Source of the DNA: Rothia mucilaginosa | GTDB lineage: Bacteria; Actinomycetota; Actinomycetes; Actinomycetales; Micrococcaceae | Reading direction: 5' to 3' | Assembly: GCF_001548235.1 (NCBI RefSeq) | Contig: NZ_AP014938.1 | Coordinates: 124,001 to 188,000 of the forward strand | DNA length: 64,000 bases | Part shown: positions 42,839 through 50,557 of the stretch, one piece after another | How the letters are laid out: each line of letters begins with the position of its first letter | Position numbering within the stretch: position 1 is the first letter of the stretch | Notes under the pieces: model-generated | What the model was told of the DNA's origin: nothing | What the model saw: only the letters and a program-made list of their open reading frames with translations | Databases searched by the model: none | Program-made: the position numbers and the translations under genes

Positions 42839-44137
42839 ATGGCTACTACCTCTCTTCTCACCGACCACTACGAACTGACCATGCTCCAGGCGGCACTCGC
42901 CTCCGGCGCAGCCAACCGCAAGTGCACCTTCGAAGTCTTCACCCGCCGCCTGCCCGCAGGCCGCCGCTACGGCATCCTCGCAGGCACCGGCCGATTCCTC
43001 GAAGGCCTCGCAGACTTCCGCTTCAACGACGAAGAACTCTCCTTCCTCTCCTCCCGCAACATCGTCAACAAAGAAACCCTCTCCTACCTCGAATCCTTCA
43101 CCTTCAGCGGCAACATCCGCGGCTATGCAGAAGGCGAAGCGTTCTTCCCCCACTCCCCCGTCATGCAGGTCGAAGGCACCTTCGCCGAAGCGTGCGTCCT
43201 CGAAACCTACCTGCTGTCCATCCTGAACTTTGACTCCGCCGTGGCGAGCGCCGCCTCCCGCATGAGCGCAGCCGCAGGCAACCGACCCTGCCTCGAAATG
43301 GGTTCGCGCCGCGCCCACGAACGCGCCGCCGTCTCCGCTGCACGCGCCGCCGTTATCGCCGGCTTCGCGGGCACCTCCAACCTGGAGGCTGGCCTGCGCT
43401 ACGGTCTGCACACCATCGGCACCAGCGCCCACGCCTTCACCCTGCTGCACGACAGCGAACGTGAAGCGTTCGAGGCTCAGTTGCGTTCCCTCGGTGCTCG
43501 CACCACCCTGCTCGTCGACACCTATGATGTGGACGAGGCAGTCCGCCTCGGCGTGGAACTCGCGGGCGAAGAGCTCGGCGGCGTACGCCTGGACTCCGGC
43601 GACCTGGTCGCCACCGCGGCTCACGTGCGTGAACTGCTCGACTCGCTCGGTAACACTAACACCAAGATCACCGTCACCAGCGACCTGGACGAGTACGCTA
43701 TCGCATCCCTGGCGGCAGCCCCCGTGGACTCCTACGGCGTGGGCACCAAGCTGGTCACCGGTTCCGGTGCGCCGACTTCCTCCATGGTGTACAAGGTTGT
43801 TGAGCGTGAGAACGCCGCTGGCGAAATGCAGCCGGTCGCTAAGGCGTCGGCTGGCAAGGCGTCCATTGGTGGCGCCAAGCGTGCGGCCCGCCGTCTCAAC
43901 GGCATGGGCATTGCGACCGCCGAGGTTCTGGGCACCCACGAGGACCCGAGCCTGCTCGAAGACACCCGCCCGCTCATGGTGGACTTCGTCCGCAACGGCG
44001 AACTGCTCCCCGGCTTCACCGGCGAGGAAGGCGTGCGCCGCGCAACCGCCCGCCACGCCGCATCCCTGGCTGAGCTTCCCGAAGTTGCCCGCCGCCTCTC
44101 GGAGGGTGAGCCGATTATTCCGACCGAGTTCATCTAA
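42839..44137 (+). CDS. pncB: Nicotinate phosphoribosyltransferase
   Basis: 432-aa enzyme that makes nicotinate mononucleotide from nicotinate and PRPP, the committing step of Preiss-Handler NAD salvage. Signatures: TSLLTDHYELTMLQAAL at the N-terminus, FTRRLPAGRRYGILAG, GSRRAHERAAVSAARAAVIAGFAGTSN around the phosphate site, GVRLDSGDLVATA and TSSMVYKVVE. The frame opens at 42785, but ATG 42839 gives the family N-terminus (MATTSLLTD) and stands 6 bases after a TACAAT. pncA follows 87 bases downstream on the same strand, so nicotinamide is first deamidated and then used here. Confidence 0.95.
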   Translation: MATTSLLTDHYELTMLQAALASGAANRKCTFEVFTRRLPAGRRYGILAGTGRFLEGLADFRFNDEELSFLSSRNIVNKETLSYLESFTFSGNIRGYAEGEAFFPHSPVMQVEGTFAEACVLETYLLSILNFDSAVASAASRMSAAAGNRPCLEMGSRRAHERAAVSAARAAVIAGFAGTSNLEAGLRYGLHTIGTSAHAFTLLHDSEREAFEAQLRSLGARTTLLVDTYDVDEAVRLGVELAGEELGGVRLDSGDLVATAAHVRELLDSLGNTNTKITVTSDLDEYAIASLAAAPVDSYGVGTKLVTGSGAPTSSMVYKVVERENAAGEMQPVAKASAGKASIGGAKRAARRLNGMGIATAEVLGTHEDPSLLEDTRPLMVDFVRNGELLPGFTGEEGVRRATARHAASLAELPEVARRLSEGEPIIPTEFI

Positions 44138-44224
44138 ACCACCCTTCTGAGATACTGTTTTCACTCGGCGAATTTCACTCGGCGAATCAGAGTGAAAACT
44201 CATTCCTACTTGTAAAGGACAGAC

Positions 44225-44851
44225 ATGTCTAAGGCACTAATTATTGTTGACGTGCAGAACGATTTCTGCGCCGGCGGCGCCCTCGCCACCGAGCGCGGTG
44301 CGGACGTTGCCGCGCTGATTAGCGAATACGTGGAGAACAACCACCACCGCTACGACGCGATTGTTGCCACCCAGGACTGGCACATCGAGCCGGGCTCGCA
44401 CTTCTCTGACACCCCCGACTATGTTGACTCCTGGCCGGTGCACTGCGTCGCCAAGAGCGAAGGCGCGCAGATTCACGAGAACCTGGACACCGACTACATT
44501 GAGGCGTACTTCCGTAAGGGCCGCTTCGAGGCAGCGTACTCGGGTTTTGAGGGTCTTCTGGCACCCGAGGATGAGGTCGCAACCGGCGAGCACGAGCTCG
44601 GTGTGGATGCGTCCGAGGACGGCCCGCAGACTCCTCTGTCGGAGTGGCTGGATGAGCGCGGCATCGAGTTCGTCGATGTTGTTGGTATCGCCACCGATTA
44701 TTGCGTGGCGGCAACCGCTCGCGATGCGGTTGATGCAGGCTACGAGACTCGCGTACTGCTTGACCTGACCGCGCCCGTGCACGAGGACAAGCTCGACGAA
44801 ACCACTGAGGCACTGGAAGCCGACGGCGTTGAGGTGGTTGAGGTTCTCTGA
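44225..44851 (+). CDS. pncA: Nicotinamidase
   Basis: 208-aa isochorismatase-fold hydrolase converting nicotinamide to nicotinate; such enzymes also activate pyrazinamide. The catalytic triad Asp9 (IIVDVQNDF), Lys98 (YFRKGRFEAAYSGFEG) and Cys160 (ATDYCVAATA) is complete. Metal ligands Asp51, His53, His59 (TQDWHIEPGSHF) and His73 (WPVHC) are present. Compared with M. tuberculosis PncA it has a moderate acidic insertion (about 113-135). The ribosome site is AAAGGAC. With pncB it forms a two-gene salvage operon ended by a strong hairpin. Confidence 0.95.
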   Translation: MSKALIIVDVQNDFCAGGALATERGADVAALISEYVENNHHRYDAIVATQDWHIEPGSHFSDTPDYVDSWPVHCVAKSEGAQIHENLDTDYIEAYFRKGRFEAAYSGFEGLLAPEDEVATGEHELGVDASEDGPQTPLSEWLDERGIEFVDVVGIATDYCVAATARDAVDAGYETRVLLDLTAPVHEDKLDETTEALEADGVEVVEVL

Positions 44852-44870
44852 CCTTGACCTTGAATATACA

Positions 44871-44925
44871 GAGGCGGGGAGCCCGGGATGTACTATCGGA
44901 TGTACTATCCCGGGCTCCTCGCCTC
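44871..44925 (+). terminator. Long hairpin terminator after pncA
   Basis: 18-bp stem GAGGCGGGGAGCCCGGGA with one G-T pair. The loop contains TGTACTAT twice, separated by CGGA. Confidence 0.85.
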
Positions 44926-44934
44926 TTGCTGTAC

Positions 44935-44997
44935 CGATAACTTAGCGCGCCGATAACTTACTGCGCCGATGATTTAGCGTGCCTACGACTCATCGTG
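44935..44997. repeat. 16-bp degenerate tandem repeat, four units
   Basis: Units at 44935, 44951, 44967 and 44983 with consensus CGATAACTTAGCGCGC, diverging progressively to the right. They are contiguous, with no spacers. Confidence 0.75.
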
Positions 44998-45098
44998 TAA
45001 TACCCCCGAATAGCCGAGGCCACTTAGTCAGCCGAGCCGCTTACTTGAAGCGAACCTCCGCCATGACCTCGCTCACCCAGGCATTTCTGGGCGCGAAA

Positions 45099-45128
45099 AA
45101 GCCCGCGAGCGCATACACTCGCGGGCTT
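45099..45128 (-). terminator. Terminator after glycine-rich gene 1 (shared hairpin family, copy 1)
   Basis: AAGCCCGCGAG/CTCGCGGGCTT stem, loop CGCATACA; TTTTTC follows on the minus strand. Nearly the same sequence recurs at 46925 and 48714. Confidence 0.88.
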
Positions 45129-45157
45129 CTACCACTCACGTTCAGAAGGCGCTAAGA

Positions 45158-46549
45158 CTAACCCTTTGTCTCGCAGAGGTACACCTTGGCTTCGCCATCA
45201 TGGACGTTAATGCCGGTCCTCATCGCGTTCATAGAGTTAGAGATTTCACCCTCAATAACGCGCGGCGACAGGTACGAACCACCCGCACCACCGGCACCGG
45301 AGAACTGCAGGTAGCTCACGCTCTGGCGAATACCATCAGGGTTGTTATTCCACTTCTGGATAGTCGTAATAGCAGACAGCGCCAGTGCAGCACCCGAACC
45401 GCCACCACCGTAGCCGCCGCCACCGCCTCCGGACATTGCGAACTGGTAGCCGTTGAACTCTGCGGCAATCTCCTCAGCAGAGAATTCGATGCGCTCGCCG
45501 CCGGGCAGGGTCAGCACTTCAAGGTTCTTCGGGTCGTTATTGTCGAGCTGGTAGCTATAAGCGACAGCACCGTTACCACCCTTAGCCTTAAAGCCGGAGC
45601 CGCCCGCGTTACCTGCGGTCGAAGAGCTGTACAGCACCTGGTTATTCTGGCTGTCGTAGCTAAAGATATGGTTGGGGCTACCAGTCGGCACCTCGGGCTT
45701 AGCACCACCCGCTCCACCGGCGCCATTGTTTCCACCCTTACCGCCGTCAACAGATACCTTAGTGTTCAGGCTGTGGGTGTAGAACTGGGTGCCCGTGGTG
45801 GCATCTCCACCGCGAGTGCTCAAACCGCTACCCGCAAAGCTGCGAATGGGCGGATTAGTCGGGTGGTAAAAATTCGTCACGCTCGCATCAAGAACAGCGG
45901 GGAAATGCTTAGCATGAGGCGCTGAGGTATAGGAGTACGTGACGCCACCGCCACCACCACCGCCTGCAACAGCGATGACTTCGCCGTCAATCAGTAGTGC
46001 CGAGGCGCCGCCTCCGGGGTGTCCATAAACCTCAACGGTACCCTTGGGACCCCTTTTAAGTTCCCTCCAGTTGAGGGCGCCCGGGTAGCGTTTGGTCACT
46101 TCAGCCACCACTTCGGCAGGCATGGTGAATCGGGGTGCGTCGCCGCCGTCGCCGTAGCCACGACCGCCTCGTCCGGGCCCGTCAGTCGTAAGCCTGCCCC
46201 GGCGGTGGTAGTTTCCTCCAGAACCGCCGCCCGCAATGATACGAACCGTCTGTCCCGGCTTCACTTCAACGATTCCGGTGGTTCGGGCGCCCGAGCCGCT
46301 TTCGTGGCCGGTGTCGCTGACTCCGCCACCACCAAAAATATCGAAGCGAAGCTTACTCACGTTAGCGGGGACAGTGAATTCCTCTTCTACACGATAGTCA
46401 CTATATCCCCTCAAGAACTTGTGGGGGCTGTCAGCAAAGACGCAGTCCAGGGATGCAGCGAACGCGGGAACAGCAGCCGAGGTGGCAATGACGGGGGCGG
46501 CCCACGCGGCACCCGCAACGACCCTGCGGCGAGAAATATGAGTAGACAT
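45158..46549 (-). CDS. Tat-exported glycine-rich protein 1 (ALK/LTK-type Gly-rich region)
   Basis: 463-aa exported protein. The Tat leader SRRRVVAGAAWAAPVIA ends near PAFA31. The mature chain starts with a Cys36 strand region, then EEEFTVPANVSKLRF (55-69) leading into a glycine-rich domain: GIVEVKPGQTVRIIAGGG, SALLIDGEVIAVAGGGGGGG, GGNNGAGGAGGAKP and GGGGGGYGGGGSG (about 374-386). The pattern of a VP-x-n-V strand, EVKPGQTV and Gly-rich tracts fits secreted bacterial proteins of the ALK/LTK glycine-rich type, whose tracts may pack as polyglycine-II helices. Only two cysteines remain after cleavage, Cys36 and Cys459, at opposite ends. There is no LPXTG, membrane anchor or lipobox. AAGGACACTG precedes the ATG. 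A tandem paralogue lies upstream. Biological role is unknown. Confidence 0.88.
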   Translation of the reverse strand: MSTHISRRRVVAGAAWAAPVIATSAAVPAFAASLDCVFADSPHKFLRGYSDYRVEEEFTVPANVSKLRFDIFGGGGVSDTGHESGSGARTTGIVEVKPGQTVRIIAGGGSGGNYHRRGRLTTDGPGRGGRGYGDGGDAPRFTMPAEVVAEVTKRYPGALNWRELKRGPKGTVEVYGHPGGGASALLIDGEVIAVAGGGGGGGVTYSYTSAPHAKHFPAVLDASVTNFYHPTNPPIRSFAGSGLSTRGGDATTGTQFYTHSLNTKVSVDGGKGGNNGAGGAGGAKPEVPTGSPNHIFSYDSQNNQVLYSSSTAGNAGGSGFKAKGGNGAVAYSYQLDNNDPKNLEVLTLPGGERIEFSAEEIAAEFNGYQFAMSGGGGGGYGGGGSGAALALSAITTIQKWNNNPDGIRQSVSYLQFSGAGGAGGSYLSPRVIEGEISNSMNAMRTGINVHDGEAKVYLCETKG

Positions 46550-47016
46550 CAGTGTCCTTCGGTGTGGTTAGTTCAGGTGCTCGCTCCCCTACCGCGCGCG
46601 GGGCGGCAGACTGTGCCGGGCTGATACTTCCCCGGAGGCGGGGATCATCAGGTGCTACGCTACCGCCTCGGATGCGAAGCGGAAAATGTGGTGCTTCAGG
46701 TGTGCGTGGTTGGGAAACGGTGACCTGGTGTTTCTCTATATGTGCACCGCTCATGCACTCAGCACTGCCCTTTTATTCATACTGGCCGGTGTCTAAGAAC
46801 GGGGAGGTATCCGTGCCGAAGATTGCGTTCGGTACCGGATATCGCATCCTCTTCTACCCTACAGGTATAAGGCTCTAGTTGAGGGTCATCTATGCTTATG
46901 CGACCAAATATTACGGCACGCGAAAAGCCCCGCGAGCGCATACACACTCGCGGGGCTTCAAGCCAAGAACTACTACCGGTAGTAGCTAGTTCAACATGCG
47001 CCTAAGCAATATCAAA
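46550..47016. other. Gap between the two glycine-rich genes
   Basis: 467 bases: the upstream region of gene 1 and the end of gene 2. It contains a TCCCCG/CGGGGA hairpin at 46629-46644 in the presumed leader of gene 1, a TGGTGTTTCT motif at 46726-46735 that is also found upstream of gene 2 (48526-48535), and the shared hairpin at 46925-46958. A 108-codon plus-strand frame (46552-46878) shows no protein-like character. Confidence 0.5.
46925..46958 (-). terminator. Terminator after glycine-rich gene 2 (shared hairpin family, copy 2)
   Basis: AAGCCCCGCGAG/CTCGCGGGGCTT stem, loop CGCATACACA; TTTTCGC follows on the minus strand. Confidence 0.88.
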
Positions 47017-48450
47017 TTACTTTCCGGTCTGGCAGAGGAATACCTTCACGATACCATTATGAGAGTACGTTGCGCCGCTGAATGCTTCGCTGGAAGTGAC
47101 GTTATTGGAGTTAGAAATCTCCCCCTCCATCACCTGCGGTGCCAGGTAGGAACCACCTGCACCACCAGAGCCTGCCAACTGCACATAGCTGATGCTCTGG
47201 CGAATACCCTTCGGATTGTTATTCCACTTCTGTGCAATCGTGATAGATGACTGCGAGAGCGCCGCACCAGAGCCGCCACCACCGTAGCCGCCACCGCCGC
47301 CACCGGATACCATAATCTGCGCACCATTGAAGAAGGGCGCTACATCGTAGTAGCCGATTTCTTCTCGGGTTCCATCGGGGAATTCAAGAACTTCTACGTC
47401 GTCCTGACGCCACCATGCCTTATTATTGTCCAATTGGTAGCTCATGGACATTACGCCATCGCCGCCCTTACCGTTCAGACCATTAGTGCCGGGATTACCA
47501 GCGGTCAAGGAACTATAGATAATCTGATTATTCTGGCTGTCAAAGCTAAAGATGCTCTTGGGAGTACCGGTCAGAACAGTCGGCTTAGCGCCGCCGGCAC
47601 CACCAATGCCTCCGCCACCACCTTTACCACCTTCAACAGTCAGCTCAAGGTTGAGATCCTGAGCATAGTATCCGTGGCCCGCACTGGCGTCACCACCACG
47701 AGCCCCACCAGCAACACCAGCTGCGCTGTATACGGGCGCGTGGGTCGGGTGCTCGGGCCCAGTCATACGAACATCCACAATGCCGGGGAAATGGCGCCTA
47801 TAGGGCTTTGCAGTGTATGGTTTGCCAACATTAGCCGCTCCACCACCGCCACCAGCAACAGCAATGACCTCACCGTCAATCAACAGTGCTGAGGACCCGC
47901 CACCAGAGCATCCATAGATTTCTTCCATCGGCATCGGTTGAGGAAGTGGACCATTGTCCCAATAGCTTCCCCAAATCCAGCGCTCATAAACATTATCTAG
48001 AACCTCTTTGGGAATTTTAACCTCGGGGATTGACCCTCCGTCACCAAACCCGTATCCGCCCTTTGCAGGACCGAGTCGGTATCCCTCACCTACAGGATAA
48101 GGTTGAGGTTCAATACGGCCTTCACCGCCTGCAATAATTTTGACGGTCTGGTGGGGTTTCACTTCAACGATTCCGCTAACTTTGGCGCCGGACCCTCCAG
48201 GAAGATTGGTGTCGTAGGTTCCACCTGCACCGCCGGTCAGCTCAAAACGTAGCTTATGAGTGCCCTCAGGGATTGTGAATTCTTTTTCAGCGCGTTCAAA
48301 ATTGTTCATACCCCGAGCGGAGACATAGGCGTTCTCTGCAAAAGTACAGTCCACAGAAGAGGCGAAGGTCGGAACGACCGAAGAAGCCGCAATCACGGGG
48401 GGCGCCCAGGCGGCACCCTTCACGACCTTACGGCGAGAAATATGAGACAT
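47017..48450 (-). CDS. Tat-exported glycine-rich protein 2, paralogue of protein 1
   Basis: 477-aa protein with the same plan as its neighbour: Tat leader SRRKVVKGAAWAPPVIA, mature start SSVDC, EKEFTIPEGTHKLRFELTGGAGG, GIVEVKPHQTVKIIAGG, SALLIDGEVIAVAGGGGG, GGIGGAGGAKP, GGGGGGYGGGGSGAAL, GSGGAGGSYLAP and the last strand VKVFLCQTGK. Mature cysteines are at the N-terminus (35), near the C-terminus (473) and one extra in YGCSGGGSS, where protein 1 has YGHPGGGAS. ATG 48450 is chosen with AAGGACAGTG upstream; a GTG lies one codon earlier. No anchor or sortase signal. Strongly conserved blocks separated by variable segments show tandem duplication followed by divergence. Confidence 0.88.
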   Translation of the reverse strand: MSHISRRKVVKGAAWAPPVIAASSVVPTFASSVDCTFAENAYVSARGMNNFERAEKEFTIPEGTHKLRFELTGGAGGTYDTNLPGGSGAKVSGIVEVKPHQTVKIIAGGEGRIEPQPYPVGEGYRLGPAKGGYGFGDGGSIPEVKIPKEVLDNVYERWIWGSYWDNGPLPQPMPMEEIYGCSGGGSSALLIDGEVIAVAGGGGGAANVGKPYTAKPYRRHFPGIVDVRMTGPEHPTHAPVYSAAGVAGGARGGDASAGHGYYAQDLNLELTVEGGKGGGGGIGGAGGAKPTVLTGTPKSIFSFDSQNNQIIYSSLTAGNPGTNGLNGKGGDGVMSMSYQLDNNKAWWRQDDVEVLEFPDGTREEIGYYDVAPFFNGAQIMVSGGGGGGYGGGGSGAALSQSSITIAQKWNNNPKGIRQSISYVQLAGSGGAGGSYLAPQVMEGEISNSNNVTSSEAFSGATYSHNGIVKVFLCQTGK

Positions 48451-48769
48451 CACTGTCCTTCAATGGTTGGTGCAACCGTCCCAGTGCACGCTATCCGGGT
48501 GCGCACAAGCCTGGGGTTGGTTGCATGGTGTTTCTTAGAGTTTTGATGCCCCAGCATAGACCTATATGCTGCGCATCAATGGAAAATTCCCTAAGCCCGG
48601 CGGCCATGCCGTGTTTGCTAAAGAACTTACCCACACTAGGCTACACGTTCTATCTCCGCGCTGTCATGATTATCGCGCCTCAGACCCAATATTTTTGCAT
48701 TTTATGCATACAGAAGCCCCGCGAGCGCATACACACTCGCGGGGCTTTTCTCTACGTTCTATCTACGTT
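48451..48769. other. Gap between glycine-rich gene 2 and the helicase gene
   Basis: 319 bases containing the upstream region of gene 2 (TGGTGTTTCT at 48526-48535), the shared hairpin at 48714-48747, and an exact 11-bp tandem duplication TCTACGTTCTA (48751-48761, 48762-48772) that includes the helicase stop codon. Confidence 0.55.
48714..48747 (-). terminator. Terminator after the helicase gene (shared hairpin family, copy 3)
   Basis: AAGCCCCGCGAG/CTCGCGGGGCTT stem, loop CGCATACACA, the same 34 bases as copy 2 (46925-46958). The T-run is better on the plus strand, so it may act in both directions. Confidence 0.82.
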
Positions 48770-50557
48770 CTAGCGTCGGCCAACGAACCAATCCGACAGC
48801 TTATCGATACGCGCCTGAATCTGCTCAGCCGAAGCCTGCGCGACCGCCGGGCCGCCACAAATCTTACGCAGCTCATTATGAATCACACCGTGCGGCTGAC
48901 CCGAACGAATCGACCACGCCGCCACATTCTTCGCCAGCTTATTGCGCAAATCCTTCAACTGGCGGTGATCCACCACCGAAGGTGCCGCAGTCGCCGGGCG
49001 GCGTGCCGCATGCTCACGCTGATGCGCTCGCAACAGCGTACCGACCTGTTCGGCATCCAGCAGACCAGGAATACCCAGGAAGTCCTGCTCCTCTTCACTG
49101 CCCACGGCAAGGTTGCCGGAGGCGAACTCGGCACCATCGAACAGCACACCGTGGAAGGACGCCTCGGAGCCGAGCGCCTCGAACTTGCCGCGTGCCAGCT
49201 GCTCGGAGGCGCGCTCCTCGCGGTTTGCTTCTTCGAGCAGGTGATCGTCCAGGCCCTCAACCATGGGGTCGATTTCCTGGGGTGCGCCGCGGTCGAGGGC
49301 GTGGTCGCGTTCTACTTCCATGTCGTTGGCGAGCATCATCAGCTGCGGCACAGACGGCAGGAACACGGAGGCGGTTTCGCCGCGCTTGCGGGCACGCACA
49401 AAACGGCCAATCGCCTGCGCGAAGAACAGCGGGGTGCTGGTGCTGGTGGCGTACACGCCCACGGCGAGGCGGGGCACGTCCACGCCTTCGGACACCATGC
49501 GCACGGCGACCATCCAGCGCTGCGTGCCTTCACGGAATTCGTCAATTTTTGCGGAGGCTTCACGGTCGTCAGAGAGAATCACGGCGGGGTATTCGCCGGT
49601 AATTTTTTGAAGCTGCTCGGCGTAGGCTTTGGCGTCCGCGTGGTCGGTGGCGATGACGAGCGCACCGGCGTCGGGCACGGTGCGGCGCACCTCGGTCAGG
49701 CGCTTATCGGCCGCCGCGAGCACGGTCGGAATCCATTCGCCGTTGGGGTCGAGGGCGGTTCGCCACGCCTGGGAGGTGATGTCCTTGGTGAAACCCTCGC
49801 CGAGGTTTGCCGCCATTTCCTCACCGGCGGAGGTGCGCCAACGCATCTGACCCGAGTACGCCATGAAGATGACCGGGCGCACCACGTGGTCCTTCAGCGC
49901 GGGGCCGTAACCGTAGGAGTAGTCTGCCTTGGAACGGCGGATACCGTCGTTATCGACCTCGTAGGTGACGAACGGAATCGGGGAGGTGTCCGAACGGAAC
50001 GGGGTACCCGTCAGCGCCACACGGCGGGTCGCGTCATCGAACGCTTCACGCAGGCCGTCGCCCCAGGACAGCGAATCGCCGGCGTGGTGAATCTCGTCAA
50101 AAATCACGAGGGTTTTCGTCGCCTCGGTGTTGCGGGCGTGCAGCTGCGGCTTATTCGCAACCTGCGCGTAAGTCAGCGCCACGCCCTTATAGTGGCGGCT
50201 AATGGTCACATCCGCGTTCTTGAAGTTCGGGTCAATCGGAATACCGACCTTCGCGGCGGCGTCTGCCCACTGCTTCTTCAGGTGGTCGGTCGGCGCCACA
50301 ACAATGAGCTGGCGAACCGTGCCGCGGTTGAAGAGTTCCTTAGCGAGGGTCAGCGCAAAGGTGGTTTTACCCGCGCCGGGGGTTGCGACTGCCATGAAGT
50401 CGCGGGGGTTGGTTTCGAAGTACTTCTGCATGGCTTCTGCCTGCCAGGCGCGCAGGCTGACGGAAGTACCCCAGGGGGCGCGGTCGGGGTATGCCGGGGA
50501 GAGCTTCGGCTTCACCATACTGTCGAATAGTGTGGGTTCCTCTGCGGGTGCGCTCAT
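48770..50557 (-). CDS. SF2 DEAD/DEAH-type helicase, XPB/UvrB-like
   Basis: 595-aa ATP-dependent helicase. Walker A is TPGAGKTT (59-66), the DEAH-type box is DEIHH (154-158), motif III-like ALTGTPFR follows. The second RecA domain contains MVAVRMVSEGVDVPRLAVGVYAT and AQAIGRFVRARKRGE (motif VI with arginine finger). The C-terminal 180 residues (LLRAHQREHAARR, DLRNKLAKNVAAWSIRSGQPHGVIHNELRKICG) form an extra helical domain characteristic of an actinobacterial helicase family related to XPB-like repair helicases. AAGGAGAG precedes the ATG. The exact role (DNA repair or recombination) is not shown by context. Confidence 0.9.
   Translation of the reverse strand: MSAPAEEPTLFDSMVKPKLSPAYPDRAPWGTSVSLRAWQAEAMQKYFETNPRDFMAVATPGAGKTTFALTLAKELFNRGTVRQLIVVAPTDHLKKQWADAAAKVGIPIDPNFKNADVTISRHYKGVALTYAQVANKPQLHARNTEATKTLVIFDEIHHAGDSLSWGDGLREAFDDATRRVALTGTPFRSDTSPIPFVTYEVDNDGIRRSKADYSYGYGPALKDHVVRPVIFMAYSGQMRWRTSAGEEMAANLGEGFTKDITSQAWRTALDPNGEWIPTVLAAADKRLTEVRRTVPDAGALVIATDHADAKAYAEQLQKITGEYPAVILSDDREASAKIDEFREGTQRWMVAVRMVSEGVDVPRLAVGVYATSTSTPLFFAQAIGRFVRARKRGETASVFLPSVPQLMMLANDMEVERDHALDRGAPQEIDPMVEGLDDHLLEEANREERASEQLARGKFEALGSEASFHGVLFDGAEFASGNLAVGSEEEQDFLGIPGLLDAEQVGTLLRAHQREHAARRPATAAPSVVDHRQLKDLRNKLAKNVAAWSIRSGQPHGVIHNELRKICGGPAVAQASAEQIQARIDKLSDWFVGRR

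Follow-up and report, generated by a model that had tools for sequence, protein, structure and literature searches.

A 64,000-nucleotide stretch of the Rothia mucilaginosa genome (contig NZ_AP014938.1, positions 124,001 to 188,000; the window) contains two adjacent reverse-strand genes for glycine-rich proteins of 463 and 477 residues, which we call P1 and P2 (Table 1). A reading made from the sequence alone had proposed that they are paralogues, carry leaders for twin-arginine translocation (Tat) and follow the plan of the TNF-like plus glycine-rich (TG) module of the receptors ALK and LTK. The two open reading frames (ORFs) indeed lie next to each other, that listed for P2 starting at a GTG one codon earlier (48453), and their products share 52% identity across an alignment of 485 columns (E 8e-114), so that the likeness is not due to chance. 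Each of the quoted motifs, FTVPAN/FTIPEG, EVKPGQTV/EVKPHQTV, LIDGEVIAVAGGGGG and SGGGGGGYGGGGSG, was found in the pair. Profile comparison and structure prediction indicate that P1 and P2 are divergent homologues of the family PF12810 (ALK_LTK_GRD), whose fold they share by prediction.

Both proteins begin with a twin-arginine leader (SRRRVV in P1, SRRKVV in P2) that ends in PxFA: SRRRVVAGAAWAAPVIATSAAVPAFA followed by AS in P1 and SRRKVVKGAAWAPPVIAASSVVPTFA followed by SS in P2. Together with a TatC encoded in the same genome (169.6 bits), these leaders confirm the proposed Tat signal. The lack of an anchor, sortase signal or lipobox was also correctly read: inspection by eye revealed neither an LPXTG motif nor a hydrophobic stretch at the C-terminus; nor is there a lipobox, Asp being the residue before the Cys that follows the cleavage site. 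Use of Tat would plausibly imply folding before export, which would fit a compact glycine lattice. The same kind of leader is present on four other proteins of genome G000 (0.814, 1.141, 1.302 and 2.279 Mb; L007-L010), whose mature parts have no match to the P1/P2 family.

Table 1. Features of the P1/P2 locus (positions in the window)
Feature	Position	Strand	Basis or remark
P1, TG-like (TNF-like + glycine-rich) protein, Tat-exported (predicted), 463 aa	45158..46549	(-)	ATG start
P1 Tat leader, residues 1-31, predicted cleavage between AFA and AS	46457..46549	(-)	sequence; common to family
P1 N-terminal Cys36 (mature Cys5), proposed disulfide partner 1	46442..46444	(-)	family alignments
P1 C-terminal Cys459 (mature Cys428), proposed disulfide partner 2	45173..45175	(-)	family alignments
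P1 tract GGGGGGYGGGG	45398..45430	(-)	sequence; columns mostly invariant in family alignment
P2, 477-aa paralogue of P1	47017..48450	(-)	ATG start
P2 Tat leader, residues 1-30	48361..48450	(-)	sequence; family alignment
P2 N-terminal Cys35	48346..48348	(-)	family alignments
P2 C-terminal Cys473	47032..47034	(-)	family alignments
P2 tract GGGGGGYGGGG	47272..47304	(-)	sequence; family alignment
Terminator-like hairpin downstream of P1	45098..45131	(-)	hairpin family D6, 74% to other two copies
Terminator-like hairpin between P2 and P1	46925..46958	(-)	hairpin family D6
Terminator-like hairpin after helicase gene neighbouring P2	48714-48747		identical to 46925-46958 copy

Searches of Pfam and NCBIfam with P1 and P2 returned no relevant family: PF12810 gave no match at E 10, and the only sub-threshold match was that of Tcp10_C to P2. 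The similarity to the ALK/LTK Pfam family expected by the sequence-only reading therefore fails for the two proteins themselves, and they are not assigned to PF12810 because they lie below its curated cut-off (24.5 bits). PF12810 was found neither in their own genome nor in 14 control genomes, and it is present in 12 of 396 genomes of the phylum and 1 of 245 of the taxonomic family. Ten Rothia relatives were scanned with PF12810 and with bacterial Gly_rich_2 (PF21722, cut-off 24.3 bits), which P1 and P2 do not reach either. L019, a frame ending early, passes both profiles (33.5 and 38.2 bits, respectively) and L017 passes PF21722 (26.5 bits), whereas L013 stays narrowly under the PF12810 cut-off (24.2 bits). 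Eight of the ten have no PF12810 match; the PF21722 matches to L013, L015 and L016 fall short of the cut-off, and five relatives are without a match to either profile.

The relationship emerges when profiles are compared with each other using hhalign. The Rothia family was aligned to 11 domains retrieved by PF12810, drawn from 19 places (18 in the phylum, 1 in the taxonomic family), of which 14 were read and L079, L085 and L089 left out. This comparison yielded a probability of 98.8 (E 1.2e-16, score 125.4, 241 columns), compared with scores of 23.2 for the reversed alignment and 43.0 for the best of 20 block shuffles. In a less strict run, the aligned part grew to 268 columns: it starts at the entry strand, takes in AGGGGG and GGGYGGGG, and reaches the last strand. 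When just the ten closest rows were used, a set that contains P1 and P2, 115 columns between the entry strand and AGGGGG aligned (score 75.1, E 1.3e-9; controls 25.6 and 35.5). The bacterial PF12810 domains have the same motif order as the Rothia proteins, namely entry strand, PGQ strand pair, GGG-S-A strand, AGGGGG, GGGYGGGG, GGSY and final strand. As judged from these alignments, the homology goes beyond glycine content and appears firmest in the first part.

The structure model of mature P1 (432 residues) has a mean predicted local distance difference test score (pLDDT) of 62.9, with 67 residues at 90 or above, 127 at 70-90 and 145 below 50. With this share of well-modelled residues, the chain is not the disordered one without a beta-sandwich core that had been named as the opposite outcome. 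Two models, built from partly overlapping alignments, led to the same 12 ALK/LTK entries of the Protein Data Bank (PDB) as best matches, separated from the following folds by several Z units and showing a structural alignment identity of 20-26%. A TNF-like sandwich with a glycine lattice is the architecture that these models predict. The proposed ALK/LTK-like plan is upheld by the profile-profile comparison and by the two models, but not by the Pfam cut-off for P1 and P2. Polyglycine-II packing, which the sequence-only reading ascribed to the Gly tracts of ALK/LTK, finds no backing in P1, as the mature stretch 186-270 is modelled at a pLDDT below 50. A ligand-like role is not supported either, since the equivalent ALK/LTK domain is the ligand-binding part of the receptor; a free copy would therefore resemble a soluble binding domain and not a ligand.

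ALK and LTK use the glycine-rich TG fold to bind a cytokine. P1 and P2 are alike in predicted fold to this domain (PF12810; PDB 7nx1, 7lir, 7mzy, 9g5i), but consist of a leader and one domain, without transmembrane helix, EGF-like part or kinase (no kinase match), and have in addition the Tat leader, a proposed terminal cysteine staple and extra variable segments. A second likeness exists to gp24 of cyanophage Pam3 (PDB 7ypx, 7yfw), with its TNF-like and glycine-rich head, conserved glycine stem and variable tip. According to the part of PMC9608196 consulted, the TNF-like domain of gp24 carries the glycine lattice, binding of the host receptor is assigned, as a proposal, to the variable tip, and the authors point out a resemblance to worm ALK. 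Gp24 is trimeric and has a phage chaperone as well as a helical shaft; the Rothia models lack any long shaft of this type. Gp24 is phage-borne, whereas the Rothia genes are chromosomal and lie among housekeeping genes.

We also considered other known systems. The phage genome context of receptor-binding tips of the gp24 type is lacking: the neighbours are housekeeping genes, and a tblastn search found no match in 50,697 phage records with the low-complexity filter on. The tail tip protein of mycobacteriophage Bxb1 (PDB 9d93) is part of a phage tail, unlike the Rothia proteins. The adhesin gp38 of Salmonella phage S16 (PDB 6F45) likewise has a glycine-rich helix bundle, as described in the consulted parts of PMC13243192 and PMC9608196, with a different attachment part; it is not among the fold matches listed, which excludes nothing. 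PE_PGRS glycine-rich proteins were set aside as well, because the Pfam scan of P1 and P2 gave no match to the N-terminal PE domain.

The family has a characteristic cysteine pattern. In 20 of 22 aligned members, one Cys lies among mature residues 1-10 and another close to the C-terminus; in the remaining two, the C-terminal Cys is absent and a Cys is found around mature position 38, in the strand that follows the entry motif. Among 253 proteins parsed from 260 protein files, 248 show the N- and C-terminal pattern, five the N-terminal and strand pattern and none any other, although these proteins are mostly close relatives and the five cases may represent a single event. The terminal cysteines of the P1 model are located in strands 5-7 and 422-430. 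In the simplest reading of the alignments, a disulfide would tie the N-terminal tail to the sheet by two alternative routes; in P1 and P2, it probably connects the tail with the last strand.

Six members of the family are encoded in the genome: the tandem pair and four solitary genes near 0.22, 1.84, 1.89 and 1.93 Mb. A further four genes match over the leader only. Across the genus, the match extends beyond P2 residue 110 in 10 of 35 genomes, and most others match over the leader. A leader-free profile matches 6 of the 245 genomes of the taxonomic family (four in the genus at full length, two outside it partially) and, over the first part only, 4 of the 396 phylum genomes outside that family. 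P1 matches 492 database proteins at E < 1e-3 among 8000 candidates scored, and a chimera scan of 154 proteins showed a mosaic look in P0025 and P0088 only. Those database homologues that are listed with an organism name belong to Rothia. In G001 (L047 3788-11246), at least four family members form a cluster, and in two of these the frame found lacks a leader. No paper on these Rothia proteins was found among the open-access papers listed by the literature searches.

P2 and P1 are separated by 467 bp and probably form separate transcripts, because a terminator-like hairpin lies in the gap. The D6 hairpins listed in Table 1 were not scored by the terminator scan; counts in the promoter and terminator scan were not above those in shuffles, and Rfam gave no match over 44000-49500. 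The 9-mer AGAAACACC occurs 43 times in the genome (reversed control: 14) and is positioned 32-186 nt before the start codons of P1, P2, the 1.925 Mb copy and the leader-only Tat gene at 1.3015 Mb. Many other sites are apparently in coding sequence (42 of the 43 were read), and the motif was not used as evidence.

Sequence variation was analyzed in a P2-like set (P2 and 53 proteins of at least 70% identity) and a P1-like set (19 proteins of at least 88%). In the former, mean entropy is 0.20 for glycines and 0.56 for other residues, the most variable stretches being approximately 41-60, 101-120, 141-180, 201-220, 341-375 and 441-477. Identity to the sister genome G014 is 84% for P2, against 96-99% for its six neighbours. 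The P1/P2 site has a single copy in G013 and two in G014, where the second gene shares 52% identity with P1 and 63% with P2; the DUF2017-like neighbour is 98.0% identical to G014 and 82.7% to G013. In G014 (L045 6215-7590), a gene pair that looks transposase-like by eye separates two tandem members. Among the other copies, identity is 82.5% at 1.93 Mb and 65% at 1.89 Mb, both compared to G013 only.

For P1 and P2, the homology, the predicted fold, the Tat leader, the family and the variability of the non-glycine segments are supported. We moderately favour the interpretation that both are secreted, free-standing TG domains whose variable loops bind a surface ligand, a role suggested by analogy with Pam3 gp24 and ALK/LTK. 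The proteins would form a TNF-like beta-sandwich carrying a lattice of glycine tracts, fold in the cytoplasm, leave by Tat and probably be closed after export by a disulfide from the N-terminal tail to the last strand. The conserved glycine frame would then hold variable loops that contact the ligand; the likeliest candidates are glycans or glycoproteins on the host mucosa or on adjacent cells. The six genes would provide the bacterium with a changeable set of binders. Export, disulfide, lattice geometry, ligand binding and any role in adhesion or ABO selection are what we infer for the Rothia proteins.

Several observations weigh against a binder. P1 and P2 have no relevant Pfam or NCBIfam score, and the mean pLDDT of the P1 model is just 62.9, with 145 of its 432 residues below 50. 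The domain is held by larger proteins in some other bacteria (L044, L073), and lone copies might be structural. Little variation is seen among the 19 P1-like proteins, which were picked at 88% identity or more. In comparison to G013, P2 (86%) is not exceptional among its six neighbours (83-98.5%, two of them at 83% and 86%), which lowers our confidence. Not every site changes fast, as the 0.22 Mb copy is 92-96% identical between the sister genomes, and fast change could also reflect relaxed constraint. L073 (G489) is an open frame of more than 3000 aa with several PF12810 domains that are spaced, by eye, by fibronectin-like segments.

The best-surviving alternative, which we nevertheless regard as rather unlikely, is a structural one: P1 and P2 would be released or wall-bound coat or matrix proteins of the biofilm, built from the glycine lattice and without a specific ligand. 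Their high glycine content and long tracts, the several copies per genome, the conserved 0.22 Mb copy and the fact that no anchor was seen would all suit such a coat. A precedent for glycine-rich bundles is sfAFP, an antifreeze protein. Both sfAFP and plant wall proteins are named as such bundles in the consulted part of PMC13243192. However, the structures that match best are domains that bind ligands or receptors, and neither the strong local variability outside the glycines nor the large site-specific divergence is expected for a passive coat.

It is improbable that the ALK likeness reflects convergence, caused by glycine composition and a generic jelly-roll prediction. Low-complexity sequence does inflate scores, both proteins stay under the Pfam cut-offs, and plain PDB sequence searches (queries P2, A1 and A4) recovered no ALK chain and mainly antibody linkers and other glycine stretches; on the other hand, the reversed and block-shuffled controls are far below the real match and both models share the same leading ALK/LTK entries. 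Decoys or modulators of host ALK/LTK signalling, for instance binding ALKAL cytokines, can almost be dismissed: the fold resembles the ALKAL-binding domain, but at a structural-alignment identity of 20-26%, and it recurs in the Pam3 tip proposed, in the part of PMC9608196 consulted, to bind a bacterial surface.

A fast-changing member of the family is the 1.84 Mb paralogue (L051 4971-7720), which is neither of the two window genes. It ends 266 bp before leuB, whose score as 3-isopropylmalate dehydrogenase is 551.6 bits (cut-off 393); ilvE comes next, and this order is kept in both sister genomes; in all three genomes, leuB is single-copy and adjoined by a family member. While leuB (96.6-99.1%), ilvE (96.4-96.7%) and two upstream neighbours (86-93%) are similar in the sister genomes, the glycine-rich protein is only 52% identical over the full alignment (47-48% by tblastn). 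It is 88% identical to P0129, which is labelled R. mucilaginosa.

In the consulted part of PMC12979206, the ABO genotype is associated with the absence of an R. mucilaginosa region (P = 1.4e-24, n = 12,475) whose locus includes a domain-less protein next to 3-isopropylmalate dehydrogenase. The effect is described there for secretors and non-secretors alike, the mechanism is stated to be unknown, and absence was scored as low read depth, so that a divergent allele would produce the same signal. We infer that the TG-family member beside leuB is a candidate for this domain-less protein; the 1.89 Mb copy, which adjoins leuC and leuD (dehydratase), fits the wording less well. PMC11367891, as far as consulted, reports no link between ABO and Rothia. 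As a tentative and rather doubtful proposal, the family could cause the ABO-R. mucilaginosa link: alleles of the secreted ALK-like binder at the leuB site would recognise H/A/B glycans differently or be exposed to anti-A/anti-B antibodies to differing degrees, and the 'absence' would be replacement by a divergent allele and not deletion.

Taken together, the novelty probably lies in a free-standing, predicted Tat-exported and probably disulfide-stapled variant of the known ALK/LTK-type domain. The ALK/LTK fold is unusual, and a six-gene set of this kind in an oral commensal genus represents a small, testable system for studying the ligands of the fold. In addition, it supplies a specific protein that could underlie a published genetic association between humans and a microbe (PMC12979206, as far as consulted). 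If the proposed link to ABO is true, human blood group would act as a selective force on a bacterial relative of the ALK/LTK receptor domain.
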